Positions 376 to 30,700 of a stretch of DNA of 64,000 nt are shown piece after piece. Both the position numbers and the translations under genes were made by a program. The stretch spans positions 1,302,001 to 1,366,000 of the forward strand of contig JAOVFP010000014.1 of the NCBI GenBank assembly GCA_025738555.1, in the 5' to 3' direction. How positions within the stretch are numbered: the stretch's first letter is position 1; each line of letters opens with the position of its first letter. The DNA comes from Cyathus striatus (lineage: Eukaryota; Basidiomycota; Agaricomycetes; Agaricales; Nidulariaceae). The notes beneath the pieces are model-generated. The model made no database searches and had not been told where the DNA came from. It was given only the letters and a program-made list of their open reading frames with translations.

Positions 376-635
376 TCAAACTGTCGTCCACCTGAATACA
401 TCTGGTGAATCGGGATCCAGTGGTGTGGCAATCATGCTGCTTGTACAAGCCTTATATACAGGCATGGTGGGCCCAGCGGGCAACATGGTGGTAATCTAAA
501 TTTGTATGAGATAAGTCTGGTATAAAAACAATGACATCATGAGCTCACGGTGTTGGTATACGCTGGAGCTGCAGTAGCAGAACGAAGCGAGGAGGCCAAA
601 ACGAAGATTACGGCTGCAAATTTGTTGATGAACAT
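376..635 (-). CDS. Small secreted peptide precursor, FRW family copy 1
   Basis: Not a family I recognise. Exons 635-549 and 495-376 are joined across a 53-nt intron (donor GTGAGC, acceptor TTTAG, CTTAT-type branch site) at phase 0 and give 68 residues. Residues 1 to about 23 form a signal peptide (hydrophobic core, Ala-rich end before AAP), so the product should be secreted. The middle is low in recognisable motifs and holds the only Cys. The end reads DPDSPDVFRW followed by TTV and stop. The intron sits just after the signal peptide, exactly as in the four other copies on this strand. The start is the ATG at 635: an overlapping longer frame from 708 lacks a signal peptide and reads through the intron. 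The paralogues make the model convincing; function is unknown. Secreted signal or effector peptide is inference. Confidence 0.72.
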
Positions 636-2860
636 GATTGATTAAAAAGTGCTCGCTGAGATATCTGTCTTTAGAGTTGAGAATGACTGGAGTGAATGAA
701 GAATCCACTGCTTCTCGTTGTGCATTTTATACTCAACTTGTAGCCAGTAGTCTATGGCAGTTCATAGAACGTCTAGTGTGCGGCGAACATCTACCTGTGT
801 CTACCCTGCTGTTCATCACCTTTCGGTCTGCCATTTCCAAATTGTCATACTTGGTAAGAATCGGGTCAGGCGCAACAGGTGTGCTTACATATATTTAGTT
901 CGGTGCTTTACGCCTACCGTTTTGCGGAATACGCAGTACTTACCGCTAGTGTTATAGATCAACTATCCGCCGCATTCCTATATTCCGGTTTAACGCTGCA
1001 TGTACAGCTGATACTATTAAGAACAAGCGCGACTTTGCTAAGCAGTGAATACGTTAAGAATACGTATCTTAGCCCATATTGCACAAGAAACACCATGTAA
1101 ATGGAGCTAAAGTGATGCTTTCAATGTCGAACAAACCATATACACACAGCATAGGATATTAGGACGCTCCTGCCTCGTACTTGGAGCCGAGTCATTCAAA
1201 CCTCGGGAAGATGGACAGTGACTCACAGCTACGTTCCTTGATTAGTACTAGTAGTGGATAAAGTGAACGTGTCATCGGTGGCACCAGAGCCCCGTATCTA
1301 TACGTTGTTGTAAATGAGCACGAGCGACCGAACACTCTAGGGGCGCGGGACATTCCCGAGCCCTGCCAGTGTGCGACGGTGGGAGAGCAGTTCTAAGATT
1401 GGATCATTTTAATAAACGTCCTTGAGAATTTGATAATGCTGTGCTCCGAAATACTGATCGCCATTACTGTTAGGCAGCTTAGGGCAGCTTTTCTACCTGA
1501 GGCTGACACGGAGAATGCCAAATGTGGTAGTCTTTCTCACTTTGTATTTCTGTACATGTTAACACAGCGGTAAGGGATGTCAAGTTATCGTATAACTTTA
1601 AGCAATTATGAGCGCTACACGGGCGCTGGGGGGTACCCTTTCAGTCAACCATCCGGACTCCATTAATCATGCCCTTATGATATTTTCACTGGTACGTATC
1701 TCTCTAAGAAATAGATTCTTTAGAATTACTGTATTTCTTGCTTCTAAAACTACTCGTCTGTGCCATCAGTTTTCGGAAATATTCTTGCTCCGGAACGGAC
1801 AAACGGGCGCATACTGCTATTTTCTACTTTATTATCACTGTACTTCGAGTAATTACTGGGCTCGGATGGAACTAGCCAGTGCGTGAAAACGTGCTATTTA
1901 AAATATACTTGTTCCTGGGTGGGGATGCAATACCGCTGATATTATATGTCATTTACATTCCGGGATCATCGCGTGTTCACGTCGATTCTCGAGAACCTGT
2001 TTCAATAAGTTGGAGCCCGCCGGCGGGTTGTACGGAGATCTGTTAAAATAGTTTATTTTATTTTAAAGAGAACTTCAACAATACTTCAAACAGAAATATG
2101 CTACTTGCAAGCTGCAGTGAGTGCAAGGCTGTTCAGGCCCAGGTTTCGCTCGTTCAAACTTCAAGTTCGTTCCATCTTCATCATCCAATCATCAAAACAA
2201 TGACATCATCATTTACGAGGAACAACAATATCACGTGATCATGTAAGTATCTTTTCATTCAAATTTTCCCTGATCCGAACAGTACCGAACTAGGTTAGTG
2301 GCAAAAAGCTGCAGTCAACTTTTCGTAAGTACTTGTTTCGTAGCACAACCAAAACTTCCACTTTGACAATTCTTGCGGCGTGCGCTACTGTTTCTATCCT
2401 CATAGCTACTGGGTCTTAGGAGGCACATCTTATACATTCAAGAATGTTAATGAAGTGTGAAGGTATAATGTAACGCGAAGGCAACTCTTGGGAGTGCCTG
2501 ATCGCACTGCAGGCTATCAGGATTCAGACTGTTCTGAGGAGAGGCATCTAGGCAGCACGCGATGGTTAAGCATAATTTAGATGTTTCATCTTCGCGGGTT
2601 GTTGTTTACGAGCCTGTCCTGGCAACGCCATGCAAGCGGTTCCAAACCTACGGCCTCGGAACCAGACTACCCATCGTCAATCGGTAGCTCGCAAAATCCT
2701 CTCCACCGTTAGCGACCAACACGACGCTCGGGAATATGTCGCTACCTTATCGCAAGAATTGAATATGCTGCATATCTCATGCGATCTTGGCAATTTAACG
2801 ACGCTATTGAAAGCCTTTTATACAACATCGACTTGGCCAGCTGGAATTTTGTTGCGCCAC
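636..2860. repeat. Upstream part of tandem unit 1, then gene-free DNA
   Basis: From about 640 to 1550 the sequence matches, with much divergence, the DNA upstream of the other FRW genes: promoter block, then a block with GGAAGATGGACAGTGA, GTGGGAGAG and CTACCTGAGG-type landmarks that recur near 7590-7860 and in part near 9190-9440, 13300-13460 and 18700-18950. From about 1600 to 2860 I see no gene. Short open frames here (for example 1608-1886 and 2630-2926) have no recognisable domain. Confidence 0.5.
723..731 (-). promoter_or_regulatory. TATA box of FRW copy 1
   Basis: Reads TATAAAATG on the minus strand, about 90 nt upstream of the ATG. All five FRW copies have a TATA-like box at this spacing, followed by a conserved leader box (here about 655-667, related to CAGATATCTCAGC). 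Confidence 0.55.
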
Positions 2861-2861
2861 G

Positions 2862-4396
2862 ATGTTTTCAAAGATTCTGACAATCGTTCTATCTGCGGTG
2901 GCGATTGCTCATGCTTCCTCCTCTAGCTTCCCGCACACCTCCCACAACCATAAGCGTGCGACTTGTACGGTAGCGTCAGCGGGTAACAGCGGCGTGGACG
3001 ATGTGAGCAGTATCTCTTCTCCCTTCAGACTGGCGTTGACGATGCTTCCAGGTTCCTTCGGCTGTTTTAGCTATAAAAAGCTGCGGCAAGGGTGGTACAA
3101 TTGTCTTCGCAGCGAATAAGACTTACAGCATTCGTTCCCAATTGGATATTACCGGTTGTGTTGGATGCACGATTCAGATCGAAGGGACTCTCAAACTCTC
3201 GGACGACACCGTTTATTGGAATGGGAAGCGCGCGATCATAAATGTGAACGGTATCAATGGAGCCACAATTACCTCTACTACAGGAAACGGTGTCTTCGAC
3301 GGAAACGGCCTGCCGCATTGGAAAAGTGAGTTACACGCTTGACTATCGGACACTTTACATGTTAACTTTGTATAACAGAGTTTGCATCTGATAGCAGCTA
3401 CGCACGACCTGTTATGCTGAATATCAACAACTCCAAAAACATCGCAGTTACGAAGTTCATATTTAAAAATGCGCCAAACGTCTTCAATGAGGTGAAGGGT
3501 GGTTCGACCAGTATTCTGTACGTCATTGACTCCTCCGCTTACCTGGGCACGTATTCACATGTATGTACTAGCTATGATGCTCTTACTCTTGATGCGACTG
3601 CAATAGACGTAAGTGGCCTTCAAGACAGATGTTGAAGACGGTTTGCTGACATGCATTTAGGGTGTCACCCCCAAGAATACTGACGGATTCGACGTTGGAA
3701 AGTCCACATATGTAACGATCAAGAATACCAAGATCACCAATCAGGACGATTGTATCGCATTCAAGCCTGGGGCTGACCACACTACGGTAACTGACATCAC
3801 TTGCACTGGCTCGCATGGCCTTTCGGTGGGTAGCCTAGGCAAAGCTGCTGGTAGCACTGATTCTGTGAGTAGAATACGGAACTTCTATTGATATTGTGGT
3901 ACTCAAAAATGCATAGGTCACGAACGTCTACGTCAAAGGTGCTACGATGATTAATTCGTCAAAGGCTGTCGGCATCAAGCTCTACCAAGGTGGATCAACT
4001 CATGGTGTTGCAACCGTCCGAAATGTCACGTACGAGGACATAACCATTAAGAACTGCGAATACGCTGTGCAAATTCAGAGCTGCTACGGGTCCACATCGA
4101 CGGCATCTTGCAACAGCGCGCCCAGCACAAGCACTATCGACGGAGTCTACTTCAAAAACTTCAAAGGCACAACATCTTCAAAATTCGAGCCTGTAAGTTG
4201 TCTCGCATGTTTTGTTTTTGTTGGGATGATTAGACTTTTCTAGGTACTGGGGAATCTGAACTGCCCGAAATCGGGTATTTGCAACGTCTTTTTCTCCAAC
4301 ATCGCCGTCAGGACTCCTAAAGGGAAGGCTAACTTCTTGTGCTCCAACATCGACAGTACTCCAGGCATCACATGCTCTGGTTCGGCTTCTGGATAA
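2862..4396 (+). CDS. Secreted GH28 polygalacturonase (probably exo-acting)
   Basis: Hydrolyses alpha-1,4 linkages of polygalacturonan in plant pectin, outside the cell. Seven exons: 2862-3002, 3052-3325, 3379-3517, 3572-3608, 3661-3864, 3917-4192, 4244-4396, all with GT-AG introns of 48-63 nt, giving 407 residues, a normal length. Residues 1-18 are a signal peptide, with a KR site soon after. The GH28 signature is complete: NTDG (Asp205), QDD (Asp226, Asp227), GSHG (His249) and GIK (Lys286); the last normally reads RIK, so the substrate-contacting Arg is replaced. GSHGLSVGSLG resembles fungal exo-polygalacturonases (galacturan 1,4-alpha-galacturonidase); that subtype is inference. A TATA-like TTTATACA lies about 45 nt upstream of the ATG. 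It is followed 313 bp later, same strand, by a pectin methylesterase, which supplies de-esterified substrate. Confidence 0.93.
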
Positions 4397-4709
4397 TGTA
4401 TTCGGGTTTGTGTGGCCGTGCAATCACGCTAATATGTACTTCGCTTAGCATGTCGTAGGAATGTAGCATGCACTACTTAATGTGTGATTCTGCATCGCAC
4501 CGAAACCTTAATCTCCTCGTGCTACACATCTCTTAAGAAAATGCCCAGGGATTATTTTCGTCTTCACTAGTTTTCGGAGAATTATATTATATGAACCGAG
4601 CTGCTATGGAAACATACTTATAGTGAATGGTCCGCGCCACCGGGTTCTTTAACGTGAACGCATAAGAGGAGACGAAGACGACAGGAAGAATTAAATTCAA
4701 AACACGATC

Positions 4710-5912
4710 ATGCTTGCGTTATTTTGGCTCTCTAGCCTTTTACTTTCATTCCCTCTGTCTGTCCTATGTATTTCAAGGACAACCCCTCCGAGCGGTGCTC
4801 TCGTGGTCAGGCAAAGTAATACCAAATCTGGCGAATACAGGTATTACCCTCGTAGCGTATTTGATGTAGTACTGTCACTAACTTATACATAGCACCATCA
4901 GCAAAGCTGTAGCAGCTCTGGGAACTTCCACATCCGCAAAATCGATCTTTATTTATCCCGGTGTATACAAAGAGCAAGTCTACGTTAACTACGGAGGCCC
5001 TCTCAAAATCTATGGATATACCACTGAGTGTGTAGCCTCTTACATATTTCCCAACCGCTTCTCAACTGCTTCTATTGAGGCAGTTCTTCATCATATCAAA
5101 ATAACCAAGTTACGATCACCAACAACCTCAACGCTCAAGACAATGGCGGAAACGATCCAAGTGCCACTTTCCGTGCCCATAGCTCCAACTTCAGTCTCTA
5201 CAACGTGAACATCGCTAACACCTATGGCCAAGGAAAGCAAGCCACCGCATTGTCCGCTAAATCCACGTCTCAAGGCTTTTACGGCTGTTCTTTCACTGGG
5301 TACCAAGATACCTTATTGGCGGACGGCGGTGGAGCTCAGTACTACTCCAACTGCTATATCGCGGGCGCAGTAGACTGGATTTACGGAGATGCGAATGTCT
5401 GGTTCGGTGAATGTACAATTGCTGCTGTTGGGCCTGGTGCTATCACCGCTATGTCAAGGACCTCCGCCTCGGATAGTACGTACTACGTGATCGATCACTC
5501 GAAAGTCGTTTCTGTTTCCTCGACTAGCTTGACTGGGAAGGTTTTCCTCGGTAGACCATGGAGAGAATATGCACGAGTGGTAAGTGGAATGTTATCGACG
5601 CGATGCGATTTACTCACCGTCGGTCCGTGAATAATAGATCTTCCAATATACTGATTTACCAGACATCATCAACGCGGCAGGATACACCACCCTTGCAACA
5701 TTGGGTGCTAACGCGTAAGTGACATAATATCGAGTTGACTATAGACATGAGCGAAGCTGAAATTTTAATACAGGAAATACTCCGAATATCAGAACACTGG
5801 TGCTGGAGCTAGTACTTCTAAACGTGTCCATCTTACATCCATTTCTGCCTCTATAACGAAGAAACAAGTTTTAGGAAGCAACTGGAAGTCTTGGATCGAT
5901 ACAACCTATTAG
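4710..5912 (+). CDS. Secreted CE8 pectin methylesterase
   Basis: Removes methyl esters from homogalacturonan, making it accessible to polygalacturonase; extracellular. Five exons: 4710-4840, 4893-5027, 5084-5579, 5638-5714, 5774-5912, giving 325 residues, typical for fungal CE8. An N-terminal hydrophobic stretch of about 20 residues is a signal peptide. Catalytic features are present: Gln141 region, GYQDT with Gln163 and Asp164, VDWIYGDA with nucleophile Asp186, and GRPW with Arg246 and Trp248. The two Phe of the usual VDFIFG are Trp and Tyr here. Splice sites were chosen because they restore the CE8 frame at every junction. Forms a co-oriented pair with the upstream polygalacturonase; together they are a two-step pectin degradation module. 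The 3' end is followed by AT-rich DNA. Confidence 0.93.
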
Positions 5913-6177
5913 TTTCTCGAGTTTAAACCCTACAATTACTTACACTGCATTTTTATGAAGCTAAATTACTATCACACTCATTCAAATTCCAAATTAGTTT
6001 ACATCTTTAATAGATCATCACACTCATTACTACTTATACTCTCGTACATTTTATAAAATATACCATGTATTTCTTCAAACTCTGCTATCCAGCATACTGT
6101 TATTATGCAGGAAGAAAATTGAAGTTGTTTCATTTGTTATGGCCTGGCAAGTATCGTTCTAGAAAGTTGACCAGTAC

Positions 6178-6259
6178 GTCACTTTGCCGGAGTGGTTAAC
6201 GGGATCGCCTGCTAAGCGGTTGGGCTTTGCCCGCGAGTGTTCGAATCGCTCAGGTGACG
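6178..6259 (+). tRNA. tRNA-Ser (anticodon GCU)
   Basis: An 82-nt cloverleaf: acceptor GTCACTT pairs with AGGTGAC (one G-T pair), discriminator G; D-arm A box with GGAGTGGTTAACGG; anticodon stem ATCGC/GCGGT around loop CTGCTAA, anticodon GCT; long variable arm GGGC/GCCC as expected for a class II serine tRNA; T arm GAGTG-TTCGAAT-CGCTC carrying the B box. No intron. Confidence 0.92.
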
Positions 6260-6260
6260 G

Positions 6261-6267
6261 TTTTTTT
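6261..6267 (+). terminator. RNA polymerase III terminator
   Basis: Run of seven T immediately after the tRNA-Ser discriminator base. Confidence 0.85.
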
Positions 6268-6743
6268 ACCGATTGCATCACTATTGTATCTCTCGGTGAA
6301 ACTAACAACTGAGATGTTCGCTGTCAGTTCTTAATATTCGCTGGCATCCCAACGCCACAATGTAGATATAAAAAGGTAATTTGAGTATGGCTCTGTACCT
6401 AACCATCCCCTAATCTGTCGGAGTAATTGACAGAGAGACGGAAATAAAATTTATATAAAATAACGCTACGACAATCCACATCATCTATTTATGTATCATA
6501 TGTAATAGCTTTCAGGAAAACACAAAGTGATAAATAAAATAGATTCTAAAAACGATTCGAGAAAGTGAAAGGGTTGTGTGTAATGCGAAGTTACACCTAT
6601 AGTGTACTTAAACAATGAAAGGGCTAAAGTTCAGAAAGCGTGTTACTAAGTTGCTGTAGATATATGCCTGCCTGGACATGAATACATACGTCAGACATAC
6701 AAAGTTGGTGTGTTGAAGAATATTTAATAATACCATATATCCA
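6268..6743. other. Non-coding spacer before FRW copy 2
   Basis: AT-rich, no gene seen. It is the 3' flank of the minus-strand FRW copy 2. Confidence 0.4.
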
Positions 6744-7008
6744 TCAATCCGTAGTCCACCTGAACACTCCCGGTGAGTCGGGATCCACAGGAGTCGTGGT
6801 TGTAGCTGGGTCTGATTTAGCTACCAAAATCTTGGTGCTTTCCACAGGAAACCCGCCGGTAATAGTCATCTAAATATGAATGAGATATTATCTCTAAGTA
6901 GCAAACTTTTAACCTCACATAGTGGATATGTCTTGGTGCTGCGGTAACTAAATGAAGCGAGGACATCAAAGTGAGAACGGGCACAATTGCAATTATGACG
7001 AGCTTCAT
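6744..7008 (-). CDS. Small secreted peptide precursor, FRW family copy 2
   Basis: Exons 7008-6919 and 6869-6744, joined at phase 0 across a 49-nt intron (GTGAGG to TTTAG), encode 71 residues, the longest copy. The signal peptide covers about residues 1-24 (hydrophobic, ending VTAAP). The middle is Thr/Val-rich with a run of four Thr. The C-terminus is DPDSPGVFRW plus TTD. Start, intron position and tail match copy 1, and the middle aligns loosely to it (ITTMLPAG versus MTITGGFP), so copies 1 and 2 are the closest pair. No Cys in the predicted mature part. Function unknown; presumably secreted. Confidence 0.8.
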
Positions 7009-7088
7009 TGCGAAGAAAGATGAGATATTTAAGCTGTGAGGACTTGAGTAGTGGAAGTGAATGAAGAGTACACTGCGATATGTGCTAT

Positions 7089-7096
7089 CTTTTATA
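7089..7096 (-). promoter_or_regulatory. TATA box of FRW copy 2
   Basis: TATAAAAG on the minus strand, about 85 nt upstream of the ATG; the conserved leader box lies at about 7021-7040. Confidence 0.55.
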
Positions 7097-8449
7097 CCGA
7101 AAGTTTCGGTAGTAGTTCATAGTACGTCGGTGTGTTGCGAGTGTCCTGCTCGTGCCATACCTGCTGTTCATCACTTTTGTTGTTCCAACTGGCACTTCCA
7201 TGATGTTGTACATGATAAACATAGCTGAGTCGAACCTGGCGCAACTTATGCATACCTACTTAAATTTGTTCAGGACCTGGTTGCGATCATTCAATGCGCG
7301 GAATCTTTCCGGTAGGTGATATTAATCAGATATGCCGTCTTCCGGAATTCGTGCTAAACAATTAATTGCTCATATCTAGTGTACATTATTTGATGTTAAT
7401 ATTTATTTTCAGCGAACTTATTTAATGAATAATTCAACTTGCTATTCAGGAAGTACATAAAACGTGGAATGCGTATGGAATTCAGAGGAATACTTACAAA
7501 TTAGAACATAATCTTATATATGGTATTGTAAACTTCCGCGACGTTGTACTCAATGGATGGAGATAAATCATACAAACACGGCGTCTCGGGAAGATGGACA
7601 GTGATTCACTCCTTAATATACACTGGTAAATGAACGTGTCTTATCACACCACTGGCTCTGGGCCTTGTAACTGTACATAGTAAATGCGACCACCCATATG
7701 CTATACGAGCGCGAAACACTTCCGAATTTAGCGACGGCGGGACAGTGGGAGAGTGGTTCTAAGTTTGATCTCGCGCTCGAGAACGTGATCTTGCTATGTG
7801 TCTGACTGTCAATAATTAGGCAGCTCCGTTACCTGAGGTTGACGGGAAAGGGATTTAAATGTGGTATAAATCTTGCCAAAGTTCCTTGCGCCTGGTAGTC
7901 ACAGAAGACATGAGCGCTAAATGAACGCTAGTACGTAAAGTGTAGATTACGCAGTATCTTCCCACATAAGTTCTCTCCTTTCGTTAGTCTCTGTCAACAA
8001 TATCTTAAATGTCAAAAAATCTCTAAATATTAGACGCACAGTATCCTGCGAACTGCAAGCGGATTAAAGTCCTGCGTCTAAAAATCTTCAGAAGCGTGCA
8101 TGGTCGCTTGTCGGACCATCCTTTAACCCGAGAGCAGTTCTAATCAGAATACTTGTCTGCTCATCTGTAACATGTCACATGTCACCGTATATTCACATCC
8201 CTATCACATAAAGCTTGAGTTAGGCATTTCAAAATGATGTATAATAGGCAAATGTATATGTTCTGGTTACAGGTTACAGCAAGGTTACAATTATAATTTA
8301 ACGTAGTGATAATAATAGCTAATATTCTGAGATTCACAATTCACCACGAAACTTCGTTGGGTTTGAATTAATATAAGTTCCTGAAATTAACACTGATCAT
8401 GAACATTGAATAAAGTGCGGGAGATATATGACAAACCTTGTATTTATCA
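7097..8449. repeat. Upstream part of tandem unit 2 and unit 3 flank
   Basis: Roughly 7100-7860 is homologous to 720-1540 upstream of FRW copy 1 (shared CTGCTGTTCATCAC, AACCTGGCGCAAC-like and GGAAGATGGACAGTGA landmarks). From about 7870 to 8449 I see only AT-rich DNA without genes. Confidence 0.5.
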
Positions 8450-8656
8450 CTACCTCCACCTGAACACATCTGCTGAGTCGGGATCCACTGGCATAGTAAC
8501 AGGTAAATCGTATGTGGTCTAGCAAGTCCTGATAAGATATATGTTTCAGTAATGACTCAAGGGTCTTACTGAGGGAATATCTGCCGGTGCTGAGGTAACC
8601 AGAGGAAGTGATGGCGCAAACGCAAAAGCGAATACCAGTGCAGAAAAGAACTTCAT
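8450..8656 (-). CDS. Small secreted peptide precursor, FRW family copy 3
   Basis: Exons 8656-8570 and 8518-8450, phase 0, intron 51 nt (GTAAGA to CTAG), encode 51 residues, the shortest copy. Signal peptide about residues 1-23 (Phe/Ala-rich core, then TSAP). After it come only some 28 residues, ending VDPDSADVFRW with one Arg before the stop. An earlier AG ten bases upstream of the chosen acceptor would shift the frame and destroy the conserved tail; the chosen site restores it. With so little between signal and tail, this copy shows best that the tail is the conserved product. Function unknown. Confidence 0.77.
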
Positions 8657-8741
8657 TTTTCAGAAACTGTGAGATGAGGGACAGTGATATATCTGAGCTG
8701 TGAGTTGTAGAAGTGTATATGGCTAGTACTCTGTGTCATTT

Positions 8742-8750
8742 CTTTATATA
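8742..8750 (-). promoter_or_regulatory. TATA box of FRW copy 3
   Basis: TATATAAAG on the minus strand about 90 nt upstream of the ATG; leader box related to CAGCTCAGATATATC at about 8684-8704. Confidence 0.55.
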
Positions 8751-11250
8751 CCAGATACTAGGCGTATAGGCAACTTCTACTCATGAAGTCGTCAGTACAA
8801 CGAACGGACGGTTGATCACCCGACCTGGCGCTACCGAAGGTGTAACTGAGCTTTCCAGTACATGCGACGCGCGGTATGTACCTTTCTATTTCAGTCTTCA
8901 AATCTACAGGGAGCTATACTGCCATGCACGGTGACTTGAACCCTCTAGCGAGACGAGCCGTATCACGCGCGTAGTATACATACGGAACTTGCCCTGGTGA
9001 AATTATCTAGACTTGTCAGAAAAAAAACATACATGCCATGGCATATGCGCACAGCATTGTATGTCTGAATCCTCCGCCTTGAGTAAATACACAGTAAATC
9101 AGACATACTTCAAACATTTATGTCAAAGATCTGTACCTTGACATATGCTGGATAAAACGAAATGAATTATCACTCTACTACACCGTCGGCCACTTTACTC
9201 TGTGGAGGTGCGGGATATCTCGAGGCTCGACGCCTAATTGGAACCGTATGGGAACGGTTCTAAATTTAAATAATTAATTGACGTCGTTGAGCTATTGATA
9301 TTAATAAGGCTATCCTCCGATATTGTTGATTTTGATAAGTAGCAGGAGCAGGCATCCTGGCACCAGGCAGGTACATTCTCTACCTGAGGTTGACATTGTT
9401 AACATGTTGACAGTGGGAGATTTAAGAAATCTAAATGTGGCAGTGTCAAATGTTTGTTCCTAACTCGAATTAGAAATCAACTTTTATCTATACTGTCGAG
9501 TTGAAAATGTCAATATATGGTCCAGCTTCCATACTACTTGTGTGGATGGGGATCACAAACCCTCACATACCTAGGCGGTAGCACTGTTAAAAGATTCTGA
9601 TTGAGAGAGGCTCCAGTGGTCACTGGTAGGCTACCATAGTAGGGGCAGGGACAGATAGAACAGCGCCGGCAGAAGGAGAATCAGGCGATTTGTTTCTCCG
9701 ATATTCTTCGGACTCTTTAACCTCTTCCACGTCCACCCGATTGCAAAGACACTGTTACCCCAGTTGAGACAGGACAGAGTAAGACGTGTCTATAAAGCAT
9801 AATAGCCCTACTGAATTCTAAACTTTCGACTTTTGATCGTTGTGAAAAAACATATGGTACACTGATGCCAAGTCAGGGGGCACTTCGGAGCAGTGATCAT
9901 TGGGGCGGAGTGTTAATTCTCTTTCTCTTAAGCTGGACGATGAACTTGCTATAGTTCCCTCCCTACGCCCAAATATACCATCGGGAAGCTCACCCATACA
10001 GTAATGCACCAAAACATATCTGCTGAGGAATTTAGTTTCAGATTTGGCGTTTAGTTGAGGTTATCACAAGCTTTGGGCATATTCCTCAGTATGCCGCGCA
10101 CCCGGCCTATTCAAACTCAAGAACTCAGCGGGTATGCTTGTCCCGTGATTGGCCCATGCGGGCACCTCTCGCTTGTACTCGCTTACAGTTGGTACCGGTT
10201 TTTGCACACCAGAAATTAAGAATTGAGTAGGACTATATTAAATGTTTGGTCATGAAAATATCGACGAAGGAGAAGGGGTAATTTGAATTTTGGCGGATCT
10301 TCAGTGAGTCTTCCGACTCTTCACCGTAACACGTGCAAGTGCCACAACCTGCCACAACCTTTTACACTTCGGTTTTAATTTTCAAAAGTTTTTCATACAT
10401 AATTTTGAAAAATATGTGTTGAGAATTCATCGGCAACAGTTGGAGTGGAGAGCTGAAGTTCACTCAACTGCATACTTAATGCATTGCTCAGAATGAGCAG
10501 TCGTCCGACTCGGGCCCAACTCGGACCCAGATTTGACCCAGATACTTACGTATAGTAACTCCGAGTCTCCGAACAACTTCGGATTCCAGAAGCTCTGATT
10601 TAAAGTTTGCTCATGTTTACCTGAACCATCTTTCGGAGTCGGCAGCCGGGGACCGGACAGAATTGGCGCAGACGAATCTGTGGCATGATTTTCATGAGGG
10701 CACGAAAGTGTTCGAGCTAATCACCGGCAGAGAGGTAAGAGAATGTAATGATTCAAGGTTAATAATGTACATTCGGAAATTTGTACTTAATTAATGTGTT
10801 CCTATGGGACTGCGTGTCCAAGTAGCTAACCTCGCCAAAACCTCGCTTCCTTGCCATTCAACAGAAGAAACAAGCATTAAAATTCCTAACTAAGGAATTA
10901 GGAAATACTACTCATTGCATTATAGATGAGCATCATCAGAACAACAGCTTCGAATACTTATACTTTCTATAGCATTCAAATATATACCTTGCACAGTGCT
11001 CAGTGTCCAAATAATATAGTACTTGCAGTATACAATCATCACTGCATAATCGTTGCGTTACAAAACAATGCAAGATAGCTGAAAGATGGTGAATATTCAT
11101 ATACAAACCAGTAACATAAAACAAAATGGACGAAAAGTTCAAAAATTAAACACTGGTATTTTGGTAAGTATTCCCATTGCTTCTGAAATTAAATGTTGAA
11201 TATGAGAACAGTGATGATTTAAATTAATATAATAGTATACCTTAAATCTA
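8751..11250. other. Tandem unit 3 upstream DNA and a gene-free stretch
   Basis: About 8760-9450 shares unit landmarks (GATCACCCGACC promoter block; CCGTCGGCCACTTTACTCTGTGG and CTACCTGAGGTTGACA further out). From 9450 to 11250 no gene is recognised. On the minus strand around 9700-9740 a short stretch could encode VDVEEVKESEEYR, vaguely like a frame in the repeat at 12.06-12.45 kb; too weak to call. Confidence 0.4.
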
Positions 11251-11477
11251 TCACTTCCTCCATCTGAAAATGTTCGATGAGTCGGGGTCAGCTGCAGATG
11301 TAGCTGTGGATGCTGAAATATCCTGTATGGCAGGCGACTTGGTGATAACAGTCTATTACGCTCGGATGAGAAACAGTAATGACACTCAAATAATTGACTC
11401 ACTGCTGGAATTGCGGTGGCAACGGAAAGTAAACTTGCCAGGATGAGAGCAGATGTGGCTGTGGTAAAAAGTTTCAT
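11251..11477 (-). CDS. Small secreted peptide precursor, FRW family copy 4
   Basis: Exons 11477-11403 and 11352-11251, phase 0, intron 50 nt (GTGAGT to AATAG), encode 58 residues. Signal peptide about residues 1-22 (ending VATAIPA). Middle Ser/Thr/Ala-rich. The tail is the most divergent: DPDSSNIFRW then RK and stop, with Ile for Val and Asn for Asp, both conservative. A longer unspliced frame exists but loses the tail. The intron and signal-peptide positions match the other copies. Function unknown. Confidence 0.77.
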
Positions 11478-11566
11478 TGCTTAGAAAATGTAAGTTGAGA
11501 CAATTTGAGATATCTGAGCTGCGAGTTGTAGGAGTTTGTTGGACTACTCAGTTGCTTATTTCTGCA

Positions 11567-11575
11567 TTATATACA
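11567..11575 (-). promoter_or_regulatory. TATA-like box of FRW copy 4
   Basis: TGTATATAA-type box on the minus strand about 90 nt upstream of the ATG; leader box CAGCTCAGATATCTCA at about 11503-11522. Confidence 0.5.
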
Positions 11576-11784
11576 AAAATTCATTCCGAGGTGGCACGCG
11601 GTTTCTTCCTTTGGGGCTGTCAAATTCCGGCAGTGTATTGTGGATGCTCTCGCCTACAACAAACAGTGAATGCTTATTGATCACCCGACCAGACCTGTCA
11701 ACAGTTTTCACTAAGAAAGATAAAATTAATTCGCATTTCGCCAAAGCACTGTGGGTGTATTTAATATTTCAAGTGATTGTACGC

Positions 11785-12530
11785 CGTGATCCTTTTTCCG
11801 ATTTGGAATCTCAGTAGCAATCAATTAATCAAGATTCAACAGCCCTCAGACGTTAATCGACTTCGCGTAGTTGACAAAAATTAAAGTGATAATTGCATAT
11901 TTAGTGTGACTATGAAGTCGGAAGGCATCCATAGAGGATTACTTAATCGAACTTAACAAATCTAGTTAAGCATGAATCCTCAACTTTTCCGCTGATAGCT
12001 TTAAATGTACACCGTACGGAAGCAGTAAAACGCCACTGTGTATTGTTACTAATAGATATTAACTAACGTAAATATTGATAACGCGAGATTTTGAAACATC
12101 CAACTATGCGGCAGAACAATTTTATGTTTTTCGTGTAACGTCGAAAGAGGTATTTTGAATGATAAATAGTATGTCTACGTGGGCAAAAAAACACTAGAAA
12201 GGCTACTTCCCTAGGTCTTGGCACTAACAATCCCTGCTGCGCTTTAGCGTAAGGGATAGCGGCCTCCTGTGTTGCCAATTGTAGGCGTAGTCGATTTCTC
12301 CGAACTTCTTCCACCTCAAAGTTTTGTTGCTGTGAAATATGTGCAATTTATTAAACGATCGATGTGTAGATTTTGTAGTTATTCTACAAATATGAGAAGA
12401 GGAAGACCCATTAAAGTATTACTCAAATTACAAGGCCACAGCAGGTTCTCTCAGGTTTCTTGTCACGGGTTCCGGCTGCTGGGTTCCGGTTAGGCCTTAG
12501 GCACCGTAGGGGTTAGGGACGGCCGTTAAC
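11785..12530. repeat. Repeat AB, copy 1 (inside tandem unit 4)
   Basis: Two adjacent segments recur near 26.88-27.47 kb. Segment B (about 12063-12450) is inverted there; segment A (about 11848-12035, with CCTCAACTTTTCCG and TTTAAATGTACACC) is in direct orientation there. The part with TTAGGCACCGTAGGGG recurs at about 15518 and 19165. No intact protein; on the minus strand B shows an EEVRR-(N/I)-RLRLQ frame in both copies, which may be a relic of coding sequence. Confidence 0.55.
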
Positions 12531-13480
12531 TTTTATTTCTTTTCATTTTGAAGCTGTGATGTACCTTGTAGTACTGTACTAACTTGTTCCGGTAAGTACA
12601 CGCCCTTCTCTTCCGTTATGCCCGATTGGGTTCCGGTAAAATCCTGATGTAGGCAGAGCGCAAAACCGACGAAACCGAAGAGACCAAGGTCAGCCCGAGT
12701 CTCTCTATTCATTGTATTTAATGTTCTGTATGTATTTAAAACTCAAGAACATAAACGAGAGATATGTACGTATTTACAATTTACAAGTTAATGTCATAGT
12801 AGATGTACTTAATAGTAGTAAATTGTGAAATCTATATTTCTGTAAGCATCCGTTGTGTTCGATATGTACTGTACACGTTCCTAAATTTGACCACTGATCA
12901 TAAGCATGATGAGTTTAGAAGAGTTTAGAAGATGCTAACTCTCTTGCCTATGCGTGTTTCACAGAAGAAGATAAAATTTAATTGTGCTTATCGTTACATA
13001 AAACATGTAGGTACAAAGGAGCTTTCTGATTCTGAATGAAGTCGCCGTTTTATTTTTTGTTCTCTGGTCCTCGATCTAAGGGTATGACATCGCTTTTGTG
13101 CACAGGATTCATTTAAAACTACCAGCGATAAGAAAACATACGCCACATATGCATATGGTAGCTTGCAGTACAAGTTGCTTACGGTTACAGGTGTACATAC
13201 ACAATGAAACTAACGCAAGGTAAATAGTGGTGGACTTACTATTTGCTACCATGAGCTGCGCTGGAAAAACCATTCCATGTTGAGACAGTGGAGTCGCCGT
13301 CGGCCCCTGTAAGTTGGTGATACCGTCCGTTAGTAGTTAATTACTCTGTGGGGGTGCGGGACTTTTTGAAGCCTACAGGAGTCAGGAGCATACGTAAAGA
13401 GTAGCCGTTGATTAACGTGTGATGATAAGGCTGTGATCCGAATATCATACAGTACTGATTATCGTAAATGGGGAGCTCGA
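12531..13480. other. Gene-free DNA, distal part of tandem unit 4
   Basis: No gene seen. From about 13080 the sequence is homologous to the outer unit block (GTCGCCGTCGGC, TACTCTGTGGGGGTGCGGGAC) found also near 18690-18760. Confidence 0.45.
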
Positions 13481-13488
13481 GGCATATG

Positions 13489-15194
13489 AGGACCCCTGAA
13501 AACCCCCTATGAGGTCCCAGGATGGACCCAGAGGCCCGTATGCGGACAGGTTTCGGCGGCCTAGCGGCCGCCAGAGGCGGACAGTGGGATGGTACCTCAG
13601 AGTCGGGCCTACCTGTATGCGGACACTGTCCTAGTACCTATTATTTATTTATTTATTTATTAACATATTAAAATAAATTTAAAATTTCTGAACATGCCAA
13701 CGGTTGACAGCAGTGCTGGCGATTTACGAGCTAATCGTCACCATTCGTATCCCCTGCCCGTTTGCTGCTGATCAACTTGACAGCCAACGTAATCTTCTGC
13801 AGGTTATTGCACAATTTTTTTTATAAAATTTGAAATCGCTTTCTGACGCTTCGAGGTCAGAGTTCAAGTGTACGTTGCGCGATGGATCGTAGTTCAATTT
13901 GCTCAAGAATGCTGACGGTCCTACAATCGCGAATTTTTGCAATCTACTTGCTCACGTTGCCGTGGGTATTTCCATGAATACACAACTTGAATAGTATTCA
14001 AAGTATTGCATTGCGATATTTGAGACTTCGCCGATCGATGCTTCTGAGGGAGCCCAAGCATCTCTTCAATTTTTTCCTGCTGTTTTAGAGTACACTGATG
14101 AAACTAGCACAAAGGTTCAGTACTCGGTCGCATTTTCACGATGTAAACTAGCAAACCTCGCATTGACCAAGGAATAATCAACCAAAACAAATCCAAAGCT
14201 ACATACATTCTCTCCAGAATTCAAGGGTGAAAACATTGTTACTTGTGCGAGAGTGTTCTGTAGGAAGTCCATATTTCAAGAGAGCATTCCATATTGTCAC
14301 AGCTAAGTGAATTTTGTTAGAATCGATTATAGCATTTACTAATTCTATATACTTGGTACATACAGCTTTGACTCATTTTTTGGCTGCTTCAGCAGCATTT
14401 GCCGCATTTCCTGTTTCTGCGATATTAACTCCCGGAGTTCGTCCTGGTTTCCATCGAAGCGCAGGGCTAACAGTAGAAGAAATTCCTTTTTTCTTGCATG
14501 TCTTGTATAATATAGGTTCAGTTTACATTCTTAACAATGAACCATGAATGTCTTACATACATGCGGTGGCATGGTGTAAGCTTATTACTTACAGTAATAA
14601 TCAATGCCTGAGTCCATTCAAACATTAAAATAATTTTTGTATTCACTTTATAGTACGATAGTGAGAGTATATTATTTTTAAGTACTGTGTTACATGTTTT
14701 ACGCGGTGGTGTCGAGCAAGTCGGCCGAGGCGAGAGGGCACCAGAATTTGATATTAGTTAAGCAAATCGCCGACGTTCTGTGGCCAACTTCCATAATTGT
14801 CATTGTCACTCTGTGTGATCAACCGGTGATGCCGTTCTTAAGCGAAACACTGACGCCGTTCTTCGTATATGCTCATCAATCTTCAATATCACCCATGATG
14901 CGCTTTTGATGCGCCATCACAGCAAGGAACAGGTTATGTCACTCAAATTTTCAACAAATTTTAGTCTCATCAATGGATATGCTCGGAGCGGCAGCGCTTT
15001 CGGCGCCGTCTCGTCATGGTATGCGGACAGGGTATGGTACCTCCTTCCGGCCGCTGTCCATATGCGGATTCGTCATCATACATCCATGTCAAAAATCGGC
15101 CAATTATATGCGGACTGTCCTGACACATCGGTCAAATTTTGCCCCAAAATGTGCGGACTGGGATGGGACCTCATAGCGGGTTTTCAGGGGTCCT
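13489..15194. mobile_element. hAT-like DNA transposon, non-autonomous or decayed, 1,706 bp
   Basis: Flanked by a perfect 8-bp duplication GGCATATG (13481-13488 and 15195-15202). Terminal inverted repeats of 31 bp with one mismatch: left 13489-13519, beginning AGGACCCCTGAAAACCC; right 15164-15194. Subterminal copies of TATGCGGAC and of GGGATGGTACCTC lie near both ends, as expected for transposase-binding repeats. An 8-bp duplication is typical of hAT elements. I found no recognisable transposase inside. The element splits tandem unit 4: sequence on either side joins up with unit 5 near 18870-18950 once it is removed. Confidence 0.85.
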
Positions 15195-15202
15195 GGCATA
15201 TG

Positions 15203-16139
15203 AATTTGACAACGGGAGATGTCAAAACATCCAAATATAGAAATGCAAGTTCCTTTTCTCGTACGATGCTAGGCCTCCTAAACACCAGCGTTAAATGTTA
15301 TGTAACGGAATTTTGAATGACAACCTGCGGTACACACATAAACACTACTCGCTTAATAGGTTGTGACACTAAATTTACCGTCGCGAGAAAGTGAGAAGAT
15401 TGTTTGTGAATGTAAACATTGATGAAGATATAAGTATTATTTAGTGGGTTGTACTATGTAGTAGTTCTTGCTCCTATTGAGAGTTCTGGTTGGTTTCGGG
15501 CAACATGGAATAGGCTGCTAGGCACCGTAGGTGTAACGCTCCGTGGTCTCCTAAGGCTACATTGCTACAGCACACAAACATAAATTTTCAGAAAGATAAT
15601 TTCCCCGAGGTGTTTCTCCATCCAGGGACTACTATTGCCAAGGGACTACGTATCTGTTAACACAGCGGAAAAAAGATGAAGCGTTAGGTTTCGTGGGCGA
15701 TGATGAATGGTCCATATTGCATTTTCTAGTGGAGTAAGAAAGAAAAAGGAAATTAAAAAGAAAATGGAACCAATAGGGGAGTTCAATCTTGGCGATACGC
15801 GATACAGACTTACAGTTACAGCTGTTTTTTTTAACGCGCGCTAAACTTTTTCGGCAGGATTGTAGTGTTGTTGTCAAGTTGCTGTAGCGACTGATCTGTA
15901 GCGACGCGACAAAACGGCCAAGATTAAACTCCCCTAATATGTTCGGAACTGGAGGTCACTTGCGTTTCTGTTTCCTGAGCATTGAAAGCGAGCAACGAGG
16001 TACAGAAGCTCAAGAAAGTCCTCGGAAAGTCCACACAGGGTTTTTGATTCATGTTCAAGAGTTTTTCATATCGATAAATAAAAAACTGCCGTTGGATAAC
16101 AGGAAGTAAGTTCCCAGTTGGAACTTTTGGGACTACCTA
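15203..16139. other. Gene-free DNA at the end of tandem unit 4
   Basis: The first bases (TGACAACGGGAGATG block) continue the unit interrupted by the 13.5-kb element. TAGGCACCGTAGG recurs at about 15518. No gene recognised. Confidence 0.4.
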
Positions 16140-17392
16140 TGGAGCGGTTCACCTAAACACCGCTACTTTTGTATAGCGGCCAATTTACTGTCTGAACGAC
16201 TTTAATTTAAGCGCCCGCAGGGCACGCTGGCGCTATGCTTGTAACATGCAAATATTACTACAACGCAGCCAGTGAAAGCTGATAAAGCTACCACAAAATG
16301 ACATAAGCTTCCAACACTGGAAGCAACCAGTGGCAACAGCAACCAGAACCAATTCCACTAATATACCAAGCAGCACATTCAACATGGCAAAGAGCTCACA
16401 GATTCAAATACAATATACTGTACGAATCAGATCAATTGGGCAGTCACGCGTCACGCACCCATTCTGCCGCGCCGAAATTTGGGCCATGTCACGCGTCACA
16501 AATGAAAATGCCGAAAGGTTAGACCGTGACATATTTAGGCGCCGGCGTAATACCTAAAATTTTTCAGTGTAATGACTATTTTTTCTTCTCCAAAAGCTAA
16601 TTCTTGCTAAACGATAGTGTTCTGTACTTCTGAAAGCTAAATATATGCACTAATTTGGGCTTATTGGCTAGCTTGAGTAACGAAAATGCCGAAAATTCTG
16701 GCATGTCACACTACAAATTCTCGTGTGCCGAAATCACTTTGTGGTTTGGGCCTGTCACGCACTCAAAGGCATGCCCAATTGATCGGATTCGTACAGTATA
16801 TCATTCTGAGAATCAGAAAGAAGACCATCACTACTTTATTCAATTTGTTCCAACTTCTCTCTGTAAACAGTGAAGGTAATTACTTTGGAGAACCAAGTCG
16901 GGTTGAGCTTTGTATATTCGAGTCCTACAAGTAAATACAAATCAACTTAAAGGAAGGATAACACAGGAATTTCGAGCTCTGAAACCAATTGTGATGATGA
17001 GTTCAGTGAGCTTGAGGGGAGGAATTGGTAAAAAGCTTGGAGATTGCGACTAACATTGCGCCTTAAGCTGGCGACCTACCTAGCGATCTGCTAAGTAGTA
17101 GCCAATAAGCTCCACAAAAAAAAAAGCTTGGAGATTGGTGTTGGAATGGCCCGTGCATTTGATATATTACATAATATAATTCCCTAATTAAGTATTCATT
17201 ACATAAGGTGGCCAAAATCTCTCAAACAAAGAAAAATATCTCGCGTAGTTTTGACTTTCAGAAAAATCTGTCTTACAGTTTCATTCATATCCCCAATACA
17301 ACTATTTCTGTAAGACAAATAAAGGGTAGGTTAAAATATGAGTGAGCAATTTAGCTTGTACAAAAGTAGCGGTGTTTAGGTGAACCGCTCCA
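16140..17392. mobile_element. TA-flanked terminal-inverted-repeat element, 1,253 bp
   Basis: Perfect 34-bp inverted repeats beginning TGGAGCGGTTCACCTAAACA: left 16140-16173, right 17359-17392, each flanked by TA (16138-16139 and 17393-17394), the target duplication of Tc1/mariner/pogo elements. The inverted match extends one base further (CTATGG). No transposase frame is visible, so it is probably non-autonomous. It contains a second foldback at about 16398-16820. Confidence 0.75.
16398..16820. repeat. Internal foldback repeat
   Basis: Imperfect inverted arms about 16398-16520 and 16688-16820: CTGTACGAATC and TCAATTGGGCA on the left reappear reversed as TGCCCAATTGA and GATTCGTACAG on the right, with AATGCCGAAA near both inner ends. 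It may be a separate MITE nested in the larger element or its original core. Confidence 0.6.
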
Positions 17393-17395
17393 TAG

Positions 17396-17858
17396 TAGTA
17401 AAAGCTCGAGTTCCGATTCTTGGAGGCAAAACTTTAATCATGTTTACCAGCGTCATCTTCTGATCTTTGGTTAACTTATCGGCAGCCTCCGATGGTCTGT
17501 CCTGGTGTCCCGAACACTGGGCCCACGGGTCAGATCCTAAATGTTCATTTCCAAATGATATGTATATCTGCTATATTATGATAATAAGTACATATCAGTG
17601 TTCCTAGTACAGGTTTGTTACAATACAATTTAGTTAAAGAAAAGTAAGACTACTTTGCTTTGTAAAGCTTTACTATTGATACAAAGGTACACGTTAAGAT
17701 AATAATACTAATAGGTGAAATTAGTATGAGGCCGGTATTCGGTAATATTGATTGAGTTCCATGTAGTGTTCGCTCATAAACTAGTAGATTCTAACGATGA
17801 GAAAAATAATTGAAAGTTCTGGAGATGGATGCAACATACGACTCGGATATGCCTAGAA
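17396..17858. other. Spacer before FRW copy 5
   Basis: No gene seen; 3' flank of FRW copy 5. Confidence 0.4.
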
Positions 17859-18071
17859 TCACTTCCCCCATCTGAACACATCTACAGAGTCGGGGTTGAC
17901 TCCTACTTTACTGCGGGGTGATTCAGATGTAGTCTAATAAATTTAGATGAGCTCCCTGTCTCGGCAATAACCGTAAGAACTTACAGATGAAATCTTTATT
18001 GGTGCTGCGATAGCAAGTGGAATAGAGGTCGCCAAAACAAGGGCGAATGTGGCTGCAGCGGTAAACTTCAT
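17859..18071 (-). CDS. Small secreted peptide precursor, FRW family copy 5
   Basis: Exons 18071-17985 and 17933-17859, phase 0, intron 51 nt (GTAAGT to ATTAG), encode 53 residues. Signal peptide about residues 1-23 (ending AIAAP). The tail is NPDSVDVFRW then GK and stop; Asn replaces the first Asp. The GK end could in principle be trimmed to a C-terminal Gly, but nothing here proves processing. Splice sites are the cleanest of the five and the leader and TATA box are well kept, so this copy looks functional. Function unknown. Confidence 0.8.
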
Positions 18072-27705: not shown

Positions 27706-30700
27706 TCAGAAGCCTGAATGCAGTGGCACATACTGGAACCCATTAGGCGCATTAAACCACATAGCCATGGTGTTACTATCTACGGTTGCTTGCTGATAGC
27801 TGTCGATATTTACCATGTTCGTATTCGGATCGTAGTTTTCAAAGACATCAGATTCCATGCCACTTTGTGGGGCGTCATGAGAGCTTGGGTATCCCCCTGG
27901 TGTCTGATTGAATGGGTTGTCGTAACTACCATGGTAGTTTGACGGTCCTGAATCATCGTAGAAAGAAGTAGGATGAACAGTTTGTTGTGCATCTCTTTGA
28001 TAGATATCTATCGGCTCAGAGTTGTCTAATCCTTGAGGATACAGTTGACCACCGTGTAGTACTGGCTGATATACATTGGACATAGGAAGATCGGATGAAG
28101 AAATGCTGCTTTGAAACGACGATGATAGTGAGCTGTCATTCCAAGCATTGTTGCTATCCGATTGTCTAGAGTTGTCCTCAGGAAGTATCATCTCCCCAGC
28201 GCTGGTGAGTTCATTTAGGATGTCTCTAATATGCCAACTGTTGTAAGCCCAAGCATATATGAAGATGAACAGTTAAACACACAAAAGGGCCCCGGCATAG
28301 TGCCATCTTTCTTCCGCCTTTCTCAGCACATCTTTACATATTTCTACTTGTTTCATTGCTTTTGGATCCGGTGCCACTCCACTGCATTTACCACCCCAGA
28401 TGTTGACGAGTAACACAACTCCGGCTGTTAAGCACGTCATTTGCATGAATGGGTACATGACAGATGTACGCTTCATAAGTTGCTCCATAACAAGCGAGCA
28501 AGATCGTGCTGCGCTGGTGCATATGGCTAGAGATGGAAAGGCAAGTGCAGATCCAGGGGGGTCATTGAATCGAATAAATGGGCGGTGTACGAGAGTTTGG
28601 ATATAGTGATATGTAGTGATCAGCGACCCCGAAAGCATGAAGAATCGGTCATCAGTCTGATGATTTGGGTCCCAGCGCACTAAGCATAAACATTTCTCAG
28701 TCTCTAGATATATGACATATAAACCATATTACCACTTACAGTATTCAGGTAATGCACCAATCCAACTGTTCAAAGCGGAGTCTAGCTCAGTTACAATGTG
28801 CTGCTCCCACTCTGATTTCAATATTAACTTCAACCACTTGGTCTTTGTCGAGTACTGCAATGTAACAAGTTCAGAAACTAACCCGAGAGCCCAGACAGAG
28901 TGTACGAACAATCGTACTCATCGTAAATGATACTATCTTGCAAAGCTGAAGGTGCTGATTAAAAGCAGACACTGTGGAAGGTACACCTTCCGGTTGCTTG
29001 AAACGATATTCAGGGTTTGCGTTCTCCCAGTACTCATCGTCACATTCGATGGGCATATCAAGGTCAAAGCTACGTAGAGCATTAGTACACGCTGTCATAA
29101 ATTTTCGATGGACACACTTCTCGTCAAATGTTGCACACGGTCTTCCTACGCTCGTACTAGTCATTCGATCAAGAAAAACAAGAACCCAGAATGCTCTCTT
29201 CCAAAGTTCATCCTCGACGGTAAGTCTCTCCCGAGGTACGCGACGACGATGGGCTCCGACGTCCTGAGCGAGTCGAATACCAAAACCGGCAAGAAGCCAC
29301 ATTGACGGTGGCTCGCAGTATCCCATAAGGAACTGGACTGCTATCTAAAATTTCAAACGAGTTAGCTACATAACATTAAGATAGGTTATAAACTCACGCA
29401 GTACAGCTGTAAGTCATACAAAGTCAGAGAATCAACCAATCCTGACTTTACAACCTGTACTTGATTGTACCATTTCCAGCCTGCAGAGTATGGTGAATTC
29501 TCTCCATCGTATAATGTTCGCTTATCAATGCAATCGGTGTACCGTGAGCCCACAGCGCATACTAACAGGAGCACACTTCCAAATCCCTCATCATGTAAGT
29601 GAAGATTGTTTGCAACAGCACGATCAAATGTTGGTTTGTGAAGGAGAGGATAGAGCAAATTCACGTGTTCAAAGTAGGCATCTGTGAGTTTTGTGATGAG
29701 ATCGGGAGGAGGAAATGTGTAGTTAACAATTGGACGTATAGTATCTTTATCCCACTGATAAGGTTATTAGAATGAAGAACGGGAGAATACACAGCGAGAA
29801 CTCACTCACAGGAAGTCTCTTCCAGAAAAAAGGTCTTCGGTTCTGCAGGATACGTTGCTTGACTGACAAACCTGTTGTATACTTATTTTTTAAAGCAAGT
29901 AATAGAGCGGTTTGCATTAACGTCATCTTGCTACTCCTTCCCCAGAACCGAAGGTTATCATCCGACTTGAAGGATAACTCCTGCCGTTCTGGAAGAACAC
30001 GATCCTCCTCTTCAACCTCATCGTCTCTGAAAAGGTCTTCCTTCGAACCGAGAGTGAGTGAAACAACCCTGTGTGTTATATCTAACACGTCATTCTCGGA
30101 TTTTGTTTCCGTTGAAGGTGAAGGGCGGGTGGCTGAGCTAAAAAAGGAACTGACGGAGAAGCTGGAGGTTAAGTCTGAGGTCGTTGCATTGCTTGGGAAG
30201 GATGCTGCATATTCGGCGTCGAGGTCATATATGAGTCTGTGTAGCATGATTTTGTCAGGACATAGCTAAAAGAGCCTCTATTAGGAAAAGGACGGAGAGA
30301 AGGTGAAACAGGAAGTGCCTTTACAACCAATCCTTCCAATAATCGAAGTCGATGTTCAAGTACTTCGAGATAACTATTGGGTCTTATAGCTTCCTTGATA
30401 TCATGAGTAATGGTACTATACATACCCCTTAGGCATCCCGCGTCTCTGCAAAGGATATCCAACTTAGCGCAAAACTATTTATGTAAAGATACGAAAGCGC
30501 ACTTTCGGTTCGGCTTTGAACGTGCACGCGACGCCATCCCCAATGCAATTCAAACACTTGGTTTGTGGGTAAGCCGGCTGGTCACCTTAAAAAGTATACT
30601 TTAAGCATCGTAGGAATGTATAGAGTTACTTGAAATCATTACATCGTTCTAATTGCGGTGTGTATGCGTTAGCCTTGTCAACTGAACGATATGCGCGGTA

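Follow-up and report, generated by a model that had tools for sequence, protein, structure and literature searches.

A tandem array of small single-tail peptide genes beside a UstYa gene in Cyathus striatus: candidate precursors of ribosomally synthesized and modified peptides

The window analyzed in this study is a 64,000-nucleotide stretch of Cyathus striatus DNA (C14:1302001-1366000), taken from a genome of 107.45 Mb in 24 contigs. In its left part, five genes on the minus strand encode precursors of 51-71 amino acids (aa), each with a predicted signal peptide, a variable middle and a nearly invariant tail, at the positions given by a first-pass annotation that was made from the letters of the window alone. 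The 10 kb to the left of the window (C14:1292001-1302000, L067) were also read and contained three further peptide genes, pepA, pepB and pepC, and a gene for a UstYa protein. Together, the eight peptide genes and the UstYa gene lie within 23 kb on one strand. The features of the array are as follows, with window coordinates unless a contig is named.

1, left window edge: the array continues outside, on the same strand.
376-635, minus strand: copy 1, 68 aa precursor; exon 1 635-549, intron 548-496 (53 nt, phase 0), exon 2 495-376; tail DPDSPDVFRWTTV.
388-417, minus strand: conserved tail codons of copy 1 (DPDSPDVFRW).
722-731, minus strand: TATA box TATAAAATGC upstream of copy 1.
6744-7008, minus strand: copy 2, 71 aa precursor; exon 1 7008-6919, intron 6918-6870 (49 nt), exon 2 6869-6744; tail DPDSPGVFRWTTD; 93.0% identity to Cyathus striatus protein P0002.
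8450-8656, minus strand: copy 3, 51 aa precursor; exon 1 8656-8570, intron 8569-8519 (51 nt), exon 2 8518-8450; tail DPDSADVFRWR.
11251-11477, minus strand: copy 4, 58 aa precursor; exon 1 11477-11403, intron 11402-11353 (50 nt), exon 2 11352-11251; tail DPDSSNIFRWRK.
17859-18071, minus strand: copy 5, 53 aa precursor; exon 1 18071-17985, intron 17984-17934 (51 nt), exon 2 17933-17859; tail NPDSVDVFRWGK; 90.6% identity to Cyathus striatus protein P0005.
C14:1300566-1300766, minus strand: pepC, tail EVDSVNAFIWR.
C14:1299229-1299433, minus strand: pepB, tail EPDSADIYGWR.
C14:1298429-1298650, minus strand: pepA, tail DPDSAKLFGWR.
C14:1296833-1297793 (L067:4833-5793), minus strand: UstYa gene with four exons and three canonical introns.

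Splicing of copies 1-5 was exact, with one canonical GTRAG...AG intron of 49-53 nt in each gene, in phase 0 and placed after codon 25-30, which bears out the single intron just past the signal peptide described by the first-pass annotation. That annotation had also counted a family of five. A search of the 107.45 Mb genome with the DNA pattern for [DN]PDSxx[VI]FRW, allowing at most one mismatch, located nine family loci, the tails of which read [DN]PDSxx[VIG]FRW; five is thus the number in the window only. Seven of the nine FRW copies are on C14 (the five of the window, C14:1105854 and C14:1181529) and the others are at C3:1113647 and C21:1139157. The four copies outside the window have the same two-exon structure as those inside it. 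Including pepA-C, which carry a broader tail, the family has twelve members with precursors of 49-71 aa. The copies at C14:1181529 and copy 2 look like recent duplicates, as do those on C3, C21 and at C14:1105854, judging from their long shared flanks. In the nine FRW copies the N-terminus is hydrophobic (best 11-residue Kyte-Doolittle mean 2.28-3.45) and is followed by small-residue cleavage-type sites, identified by eye, so a signal peptide is predicted; for pepA-C the prediction was made by eye on the translations.

Upstream alignment showed a TATA-like box at the aligned position in all nine FRW copies. A 12-base element, GATGAACAGCAG, was present 377-424 bases ahead of the tail in five of the nine (the C3 copy, C14:1105854, C14:1181529 and copies 1 and 2; for example window 817-806, minus strand), and the C21 copy had a shorter common version, GAACAGCAG. 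This element is possibly regulatory, or it may reflect shared ancestry.

Further searches delimited the family. At up to two mismatches the tail pattern gave 29 matches, against 5 for a backward-pattern control, and 20 of the 29 were rejected as non-family by their translations. A relaxed tail pattern returned the identical nine loci at zero mismatches and ten extra matches at one mismatch (control 4); the tail was spelled in 0/10 of these matched stretches, four being rejected in their translated context and six judged by the matched stretch alone. A broader tail pattern had 11 exact matches (control 2), namely ten family members and one non-family stretch at C19:2032489-2032518 (minus strand), which encodes DPDSIHRYKW. 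A profile scan of 337 kb of partly overlapping sequence other than L067 found no further copies. When the genome was searched at the protein level with the second exon of copy 3, and at the DNA level with copy 1 or copy 4, each query recovered its own locus alone, so that these tools miss even known paralogues.

Membership of pepA, pepB and pepC was supported in part by profiles. A tail profile built from the nine copies and one Cyathus striatus tail, run on the 10 kb of L067, matched pepA (E 0.0036) and pepB (0.01) weakly and pepC at noise level (1.4), and an exon-1 profile matched pepC only (7e-6). With profile support being partial, their membership otherwise rests on shared gene architecture and position: all three have a predicted signal peptide, a phase-0 intron (57, 52 and 51 nt, respectively) and related tails. 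A pattern for tails ending in R or K, designed after pepA-C were known, had five matches genome-wide, 5/5 of them in the family, and its backward control had 2.

Across the twelve members, D3, S4 and W10 of the tail are invariant. Position 8 is always aromatic, with F in eleven members and Y in one; position 7 varies among V, I, L, A and G, and position 9 holds R in nine members, G in two and I in one. The common feature is thus DSxx, a mostly hydrophobic residue and [FY]-x-W, that is, an aromatic-x-Trp end and not FRW per se. The motif proposed earlier, [DN]PDSxx[VI]FRW, describes the nine FRW copies, and the unit is broader than that. Likewise, of the 10-13 terminal residues that had been called nearly invariant, ten form such a block and the 0-3 residues after it vary. 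The middles, described as variable in length and sequence, range from 16 to 34 residues and share no motif common to all copies. Tail net charge in the nine FRW copies was -2 to +1 and that of the mature precursor -3 to +2, and 8/9 had no cysteine. The stated lack of KR/RR sites was accurate for the window copies generally, apart from a terminal RK in copy 4, which is the sole dibasic site among the nine FRW copies; pepB has an RR. A basic residue stands 2-5 positions ahead of the tail in 7/12 members, as RR in pepB and as K in the other six (pepA, pepC, copy 5 and those at C3, C21 and C14:1105854), and could serve as a cut site, which would then not be universal. The tail end of copy 5 presumably resembles the vertebrate melanocortin core, a likeness that is probably due to chance because it was found in 1/12 members.

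The UstYa gene encodes a protein of 262 aa that matched PF11807 over residues 35-240 (E 1.6e-48). It has two HXXHC motifs (HHLHC at 156 and HLNHC at 186) and a hydrophobic segment near the N-terminus, and from its sequence the gene looks intact. The end of pepA is 635 bp from the UstYa start codon on the same strand. Apart from UstYa, the only recognised genes near the array were on the other strand: between copies 1 and 2 lie exons of a pectinase (GH28) gene and of a pectinesterase gene (window 3917-4240 and 5079-5627, plus strand). Linkage was examined for two families, STE3 and UstYa. The STE3 search of the genome yielded 31 exon matches, a large set including some with in-frame stops, on C6, C8, C15, C16 and C20. 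With PF11807, at least 32 exon matches were found, which represent 22 or more genes distributed over 16 neighbourhoods, among them the match beside the array at C14:1296902-1297518. By chance, 0.0047 UstYa genes (calculated from neighbourhoods) or 0.0065 (from genes) would be expected within 5 kb of the array, and slightly more if genes were missed. With linkage examined for two families, the evidence for UstYa is good but not overwhelming. Another UstYa neighbourhood contains, ∼2.3 kb from the UstYa match at C4:3054909, a tail-like string interrupted by an in-frame stop, DADS*DIFLW (L023:1501-1530, C4:3052618). A signal-peptide exon was not recognised nearby, and the string may be either a chance occurrence or a decayed copy.

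The substitution analysis along the precursor, which the first-pass annotation had proposed as a check, was performed on the five window copies. The proportion of synonymous differences (pS) differed little between the parts of the precursor (signal 0.61, middle 0.63, tail 0.60), and that of nonsynonymous differences (pN) was 0.40, 0.51 and 0.13, respectively. The corresponding ratios of nonsynonymous to synonymous change (dN/dS) were 0.46, 0.64 and 0.12, values that are approximate because pS is high. For the eight tail motif codons, which were picked post hoc, dN/dS was 0.05. When ten-codon windows were moved along the five-copy alignment, the tail had the lowest pN of all 43, and 6/20000 random ten-column sets were equally low. 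Among paralogues, selection centred on a short C-terminal unit is therefore supported, as had been suggested from the variable middle and constant end.

Homologues outside this genome were sought with a profile of the nine sequences. Among ∼5.8 billion proteins it matched five, all Cyathus striatus hypothetical proteins without functional annotation (BDQ17DRAFT_1433515, _1434394, _1431064, _1433022 and _1434395). Four of the five have 84-93% identity to copies described here, are of equal length and can be aligned with the spliced predictions over their whole length, which is independent support for the splice models. RNA-seq was used for improvement in the Cyathus striatus annotation pipeline according to PMC8480192, a statement that is generic to the pipeline and not specific to these genes. 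In P0004 (BDQ17DRAFT_1433022) the public model connects the VF codons with sequence farther downstream, so that the FRW end is lost, and the related C3 copy (L010) encodes FRW directly; this public model appears to be mis-spliced at its 3' end. A tail-weighted alignment search returned, among nine candidates, only two of the same five proteins, and a single-sequence protein search with copy 3 gave no match. The profile search requires shared five-residue words, and within that reach the family looks restricted to the genus. In the Pfam scan of copy 3, pepA, pepB and pepC nothing exceeded the curated cut-off; pepA had one sub-threshold match (DUF4006, 13.9 bits versus 22). In the literature, the four full tail strings had no match, and none of the matches to VFRW was fungal by title; among the papers listed in other literature searches, none dealt with this family. 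The earlier remark that no fungal family with this motif is known held within these searches.

The position of the UstYa gene beside the array moves the leading reading from the signal, effector or antimicrobial roles, which had been offered as speculation, to that of precursors of ribosomally synthesized and post-translationally modified peptides (RiPPs). We put the probability at roughly 0.5 that the array encodes the precursors of a family of secreted peptides, each with a single core and modified by UstYa. The gene structures, the conservation of the tails among paralogues, the tandem arrangement and the adjacent intact-looking UstYa gene can be read from the DNA, and from them we infer secretion, processing, modification, a cross-link and a biological role. 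The signal peptide would take each precursor into the secretory pathway, the fast-evolving middle would serve as a spacer to be discarded, and the product unit would consist of the last 10-15 residues. The adjacent UstYa-type oxidase would act on the aromatics of the (F/Y)-x-W end, most plausibly by joining their side chains. The unit would then be released from the spacer by cutting, and a Kex1-like carboxypeptidase could trim trailing basic residues. The three members nearest to the UstYa gene retain DS, the aromatic residue and W, as do 12/12 members, and vary the intervening residue, as expected if the aromatic pair matters.

Several observations weigh against the RiPP reading. The four members at C14:1105854, C14:1181529, C3:1113647 and C21:1139157 have no UstYa match closer than ∼115 kb, the UstYa counts being lower bounds. 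Two other UstYa neighbourhoods (L023 and L068), which were partly read, contained no intact peptide of this kind, and that of the array is the only known one of the 16 with such peptides. The scanned single-exon open reading frames (ORFs), a set of 30 entries (window 51804-52322 twice, one from L067), yielded no recognisable member of a P450, peptidase, tyrosinase or transporter family; with each entry a single exon, this is a weak test. Tyr, the usual UstYa target, occurs in 1/12 tails, and the precursors are non-repeat and carry next to no dibasic sites. Further, in four orthologue pairs with the Cyathus striatus proteins, the positions that differ number 9/92 in the signal, 14/117 in the middle and 4/40 in the tail (P0004, the fifth pair, was excluded since its 3' gene model differs). 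Over this short orthologue divergence the tail is not visibly slower than the rest, so the earlier claim of selection on a short C-terminal product stands for the paralogues and not for the orthologues.

It is also conceivable, if rather unlikely, that the tail is cut out as an unmodified linear ligand of pheromone or hormone type and that the UstYa neighbour is coincidental. Plant C-terminally encoded peptide hormones and the ascomycete alpha-factor are similar in logic, and a signal peptide, a variable spacer and a conserved C-terminus would suit such a ligand, as would the dispersed copies that have no UstYa match nearby. The R of FRW is strongly kept in the nine copies, beyond the need of a pure aromatic cross-link. 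Moreover, alpha-pheromone-like secreted precursors occur in basidiomycetes, and peptides are processed from some of them, as reported in PMC6339444 and PMC9769878. However, a UstYa gene 635 bp away on the same strand would be expected by chance only at ∼0.005-0.0065, the central residue of the end may be R, G or I while the aromatics stay constant, and none of the matches to STE3, the receptor type searched, is on C14.

In another reading the tail is no product and serves for recognition or binding: the whole secreted protein might act, or the tail might be a follower that guides the processing of a variable core in the middle. The middles do vary, as is possible for cores. The 0-3 arbitrary extra residues leave the exact C-terminus unfixed, and between orthologues the middles are conserved to about the same degree as the tails. 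We nevertheless judge this explanation improbable, since middles of 16-34 residues with no motif in all copies and a dN/dS of 0.64-0.84, depending on the set of paralogues, are more in keeping with a spacer than with a core. Cationic antimicrobial or defence peptides are typically tandem, multicopy and secreted, as is this family, but the low net charges and the scarcity of cysteine make such a role, among those raised at first, very improbable. That the copies are chance ORFs or decayed genes is scarcely credible in view of nine paralogues that have kept their reading frames intact and show canonical introns and a TATA-like box, the purifying selection, and the four annotated proteins that match them in length from end to end.

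Elsewhere in the window, two very similar inverted transcription-factor genes lie ∼21 kb apart at 27709-30474 (minus strand) and 51595-54339 (plus strand); Fungal_trans (PF04082) was matched within 28874-29344, and the extent and similarity of the second gene were taken from ORF listings. Two related, multi-pass-looking proteins are encoded at 45383-46163 (minus strand) and 60808-61789 (plus strand). The exons scanned had no Pfam match, and by their sequence they possibly form an orphan receptor-like family.

Mushroom-forming fungi are rich in UstYa genes, with 22 or more in the genome studied here and 16 in Pleurotus ostreatus according to PMC8893723, yet few basidiomycete repeat precursors have one nearby: as given in PMC7329392, the share is 103/1680 (6.1%) versus 30.1% in ascomycetes. 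To the question of what the mushroom enzymes act on, a UstYa gene beside tandem, non-repeat, single-tail precursors offers a concrete answer. It also offers a search pattern beyond repeat-based mining, namely a signal peptide, a phase-0 intron and DSxx-hydrophobic-[FY]-x-W near the stop codon. If the reading is true, the peptide product was diversified by gene duplication and not by internal repeats. Only tentatively, as a proposal that is itself unlikely, do we suggest a new fungal RiPP type in which tandem single-core precursors have their aromatic-x-Trp end cross-linked by UstYa to a three-residue ring, and which would supply the missing substrates of many mushroom UstYa enzymes, invisible to repeat-based mining.

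Compared with known systems, the array shares with basidiomycete a-type mating pheromones small precursors in several paralogues. It differs in having a signal peptide, no CaaX box and no STE3 match on C14, and on the latter two points the mating-pheromone reading was rejected, in agreement with the first-pass annotation. Cycloamanides and borosins are also made from mushroom RiPP precursors with a short product region; the precursors of the array have signal peptides and 49-71 aa, and lack both the MSDIN leader found in cycloamanide precursors and a fused methyltransferase. The KEX2-processed repeat proteins (KEPs) of Agaricomycetes resemble the array in their small secreted precursors, and some KEP peptides are also Trp-ended (-AADW; PMC9769878). 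In contrast to the repeated, Kex2-flanked unit of KEPs, the array genes have no repeats and dibasic sites are nearly absent, and KEP mining, which requires repeats as described in PMC7329392, would miss them.

The dikaritins (ustiloxins, phomopsins, asperipin-2a and victorin) are, like the peptides of the array, encoded by signal-peptide precursors beside a UstYa gene with two HXXHC motifs and have a short aromatic-containing unit. A DUF3328/UstYa gene beside the precursors is the class-defining criterion for dikaritins, and two HXXHC motifs are a suggested sign of RiPP-related DUF3328 proteins (both PMC12048977); the array has such a gene at 635 bp, with PF11807 and both motifs, and an N-terminal signal peptide is predicted for its precursors from hydrophobicity and by eye. 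DUF3328 proteins are reported to be indispensable for cyclising ustiloxins, asperipin-2a and phomopsins, and their genes to be commonest directly beside repeat-precursor genes (PMC7329392). Repeated cores with Kex2 dibasic sites, the precursor criterion given in PMC9769878, are not found in the array, which has one C-terminal tail per precursor and spreads its diversity across eight tandem genes instead of repeats. The array differs further in its aromatic-x-Trp end, with Tyr in 1/12 tails, and in that no other tailoring gene was recognised in the ORFs scanned. Known UstYa-type links run via Tyr according to PMC6514808, and victorin is cyclised via a Phe side chain according to PMC9233826. From its genes, the array appears to work like a dikaritin system and is not filed as one, since the adjoining UstYa gene fits that class and the single tail with scarcely any Kex2 site does not. 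Among the titles and abstract openings of the papers listed in searches for fungal UstYa precursors, no description of single-tail precursors in tandem was found. In lichens, UstY clusters without repeat precursors are reported, and a single core peptide is named as one possibility (PMC12048977); the array described here is a concrete candidate for such single-core UstY precursors.

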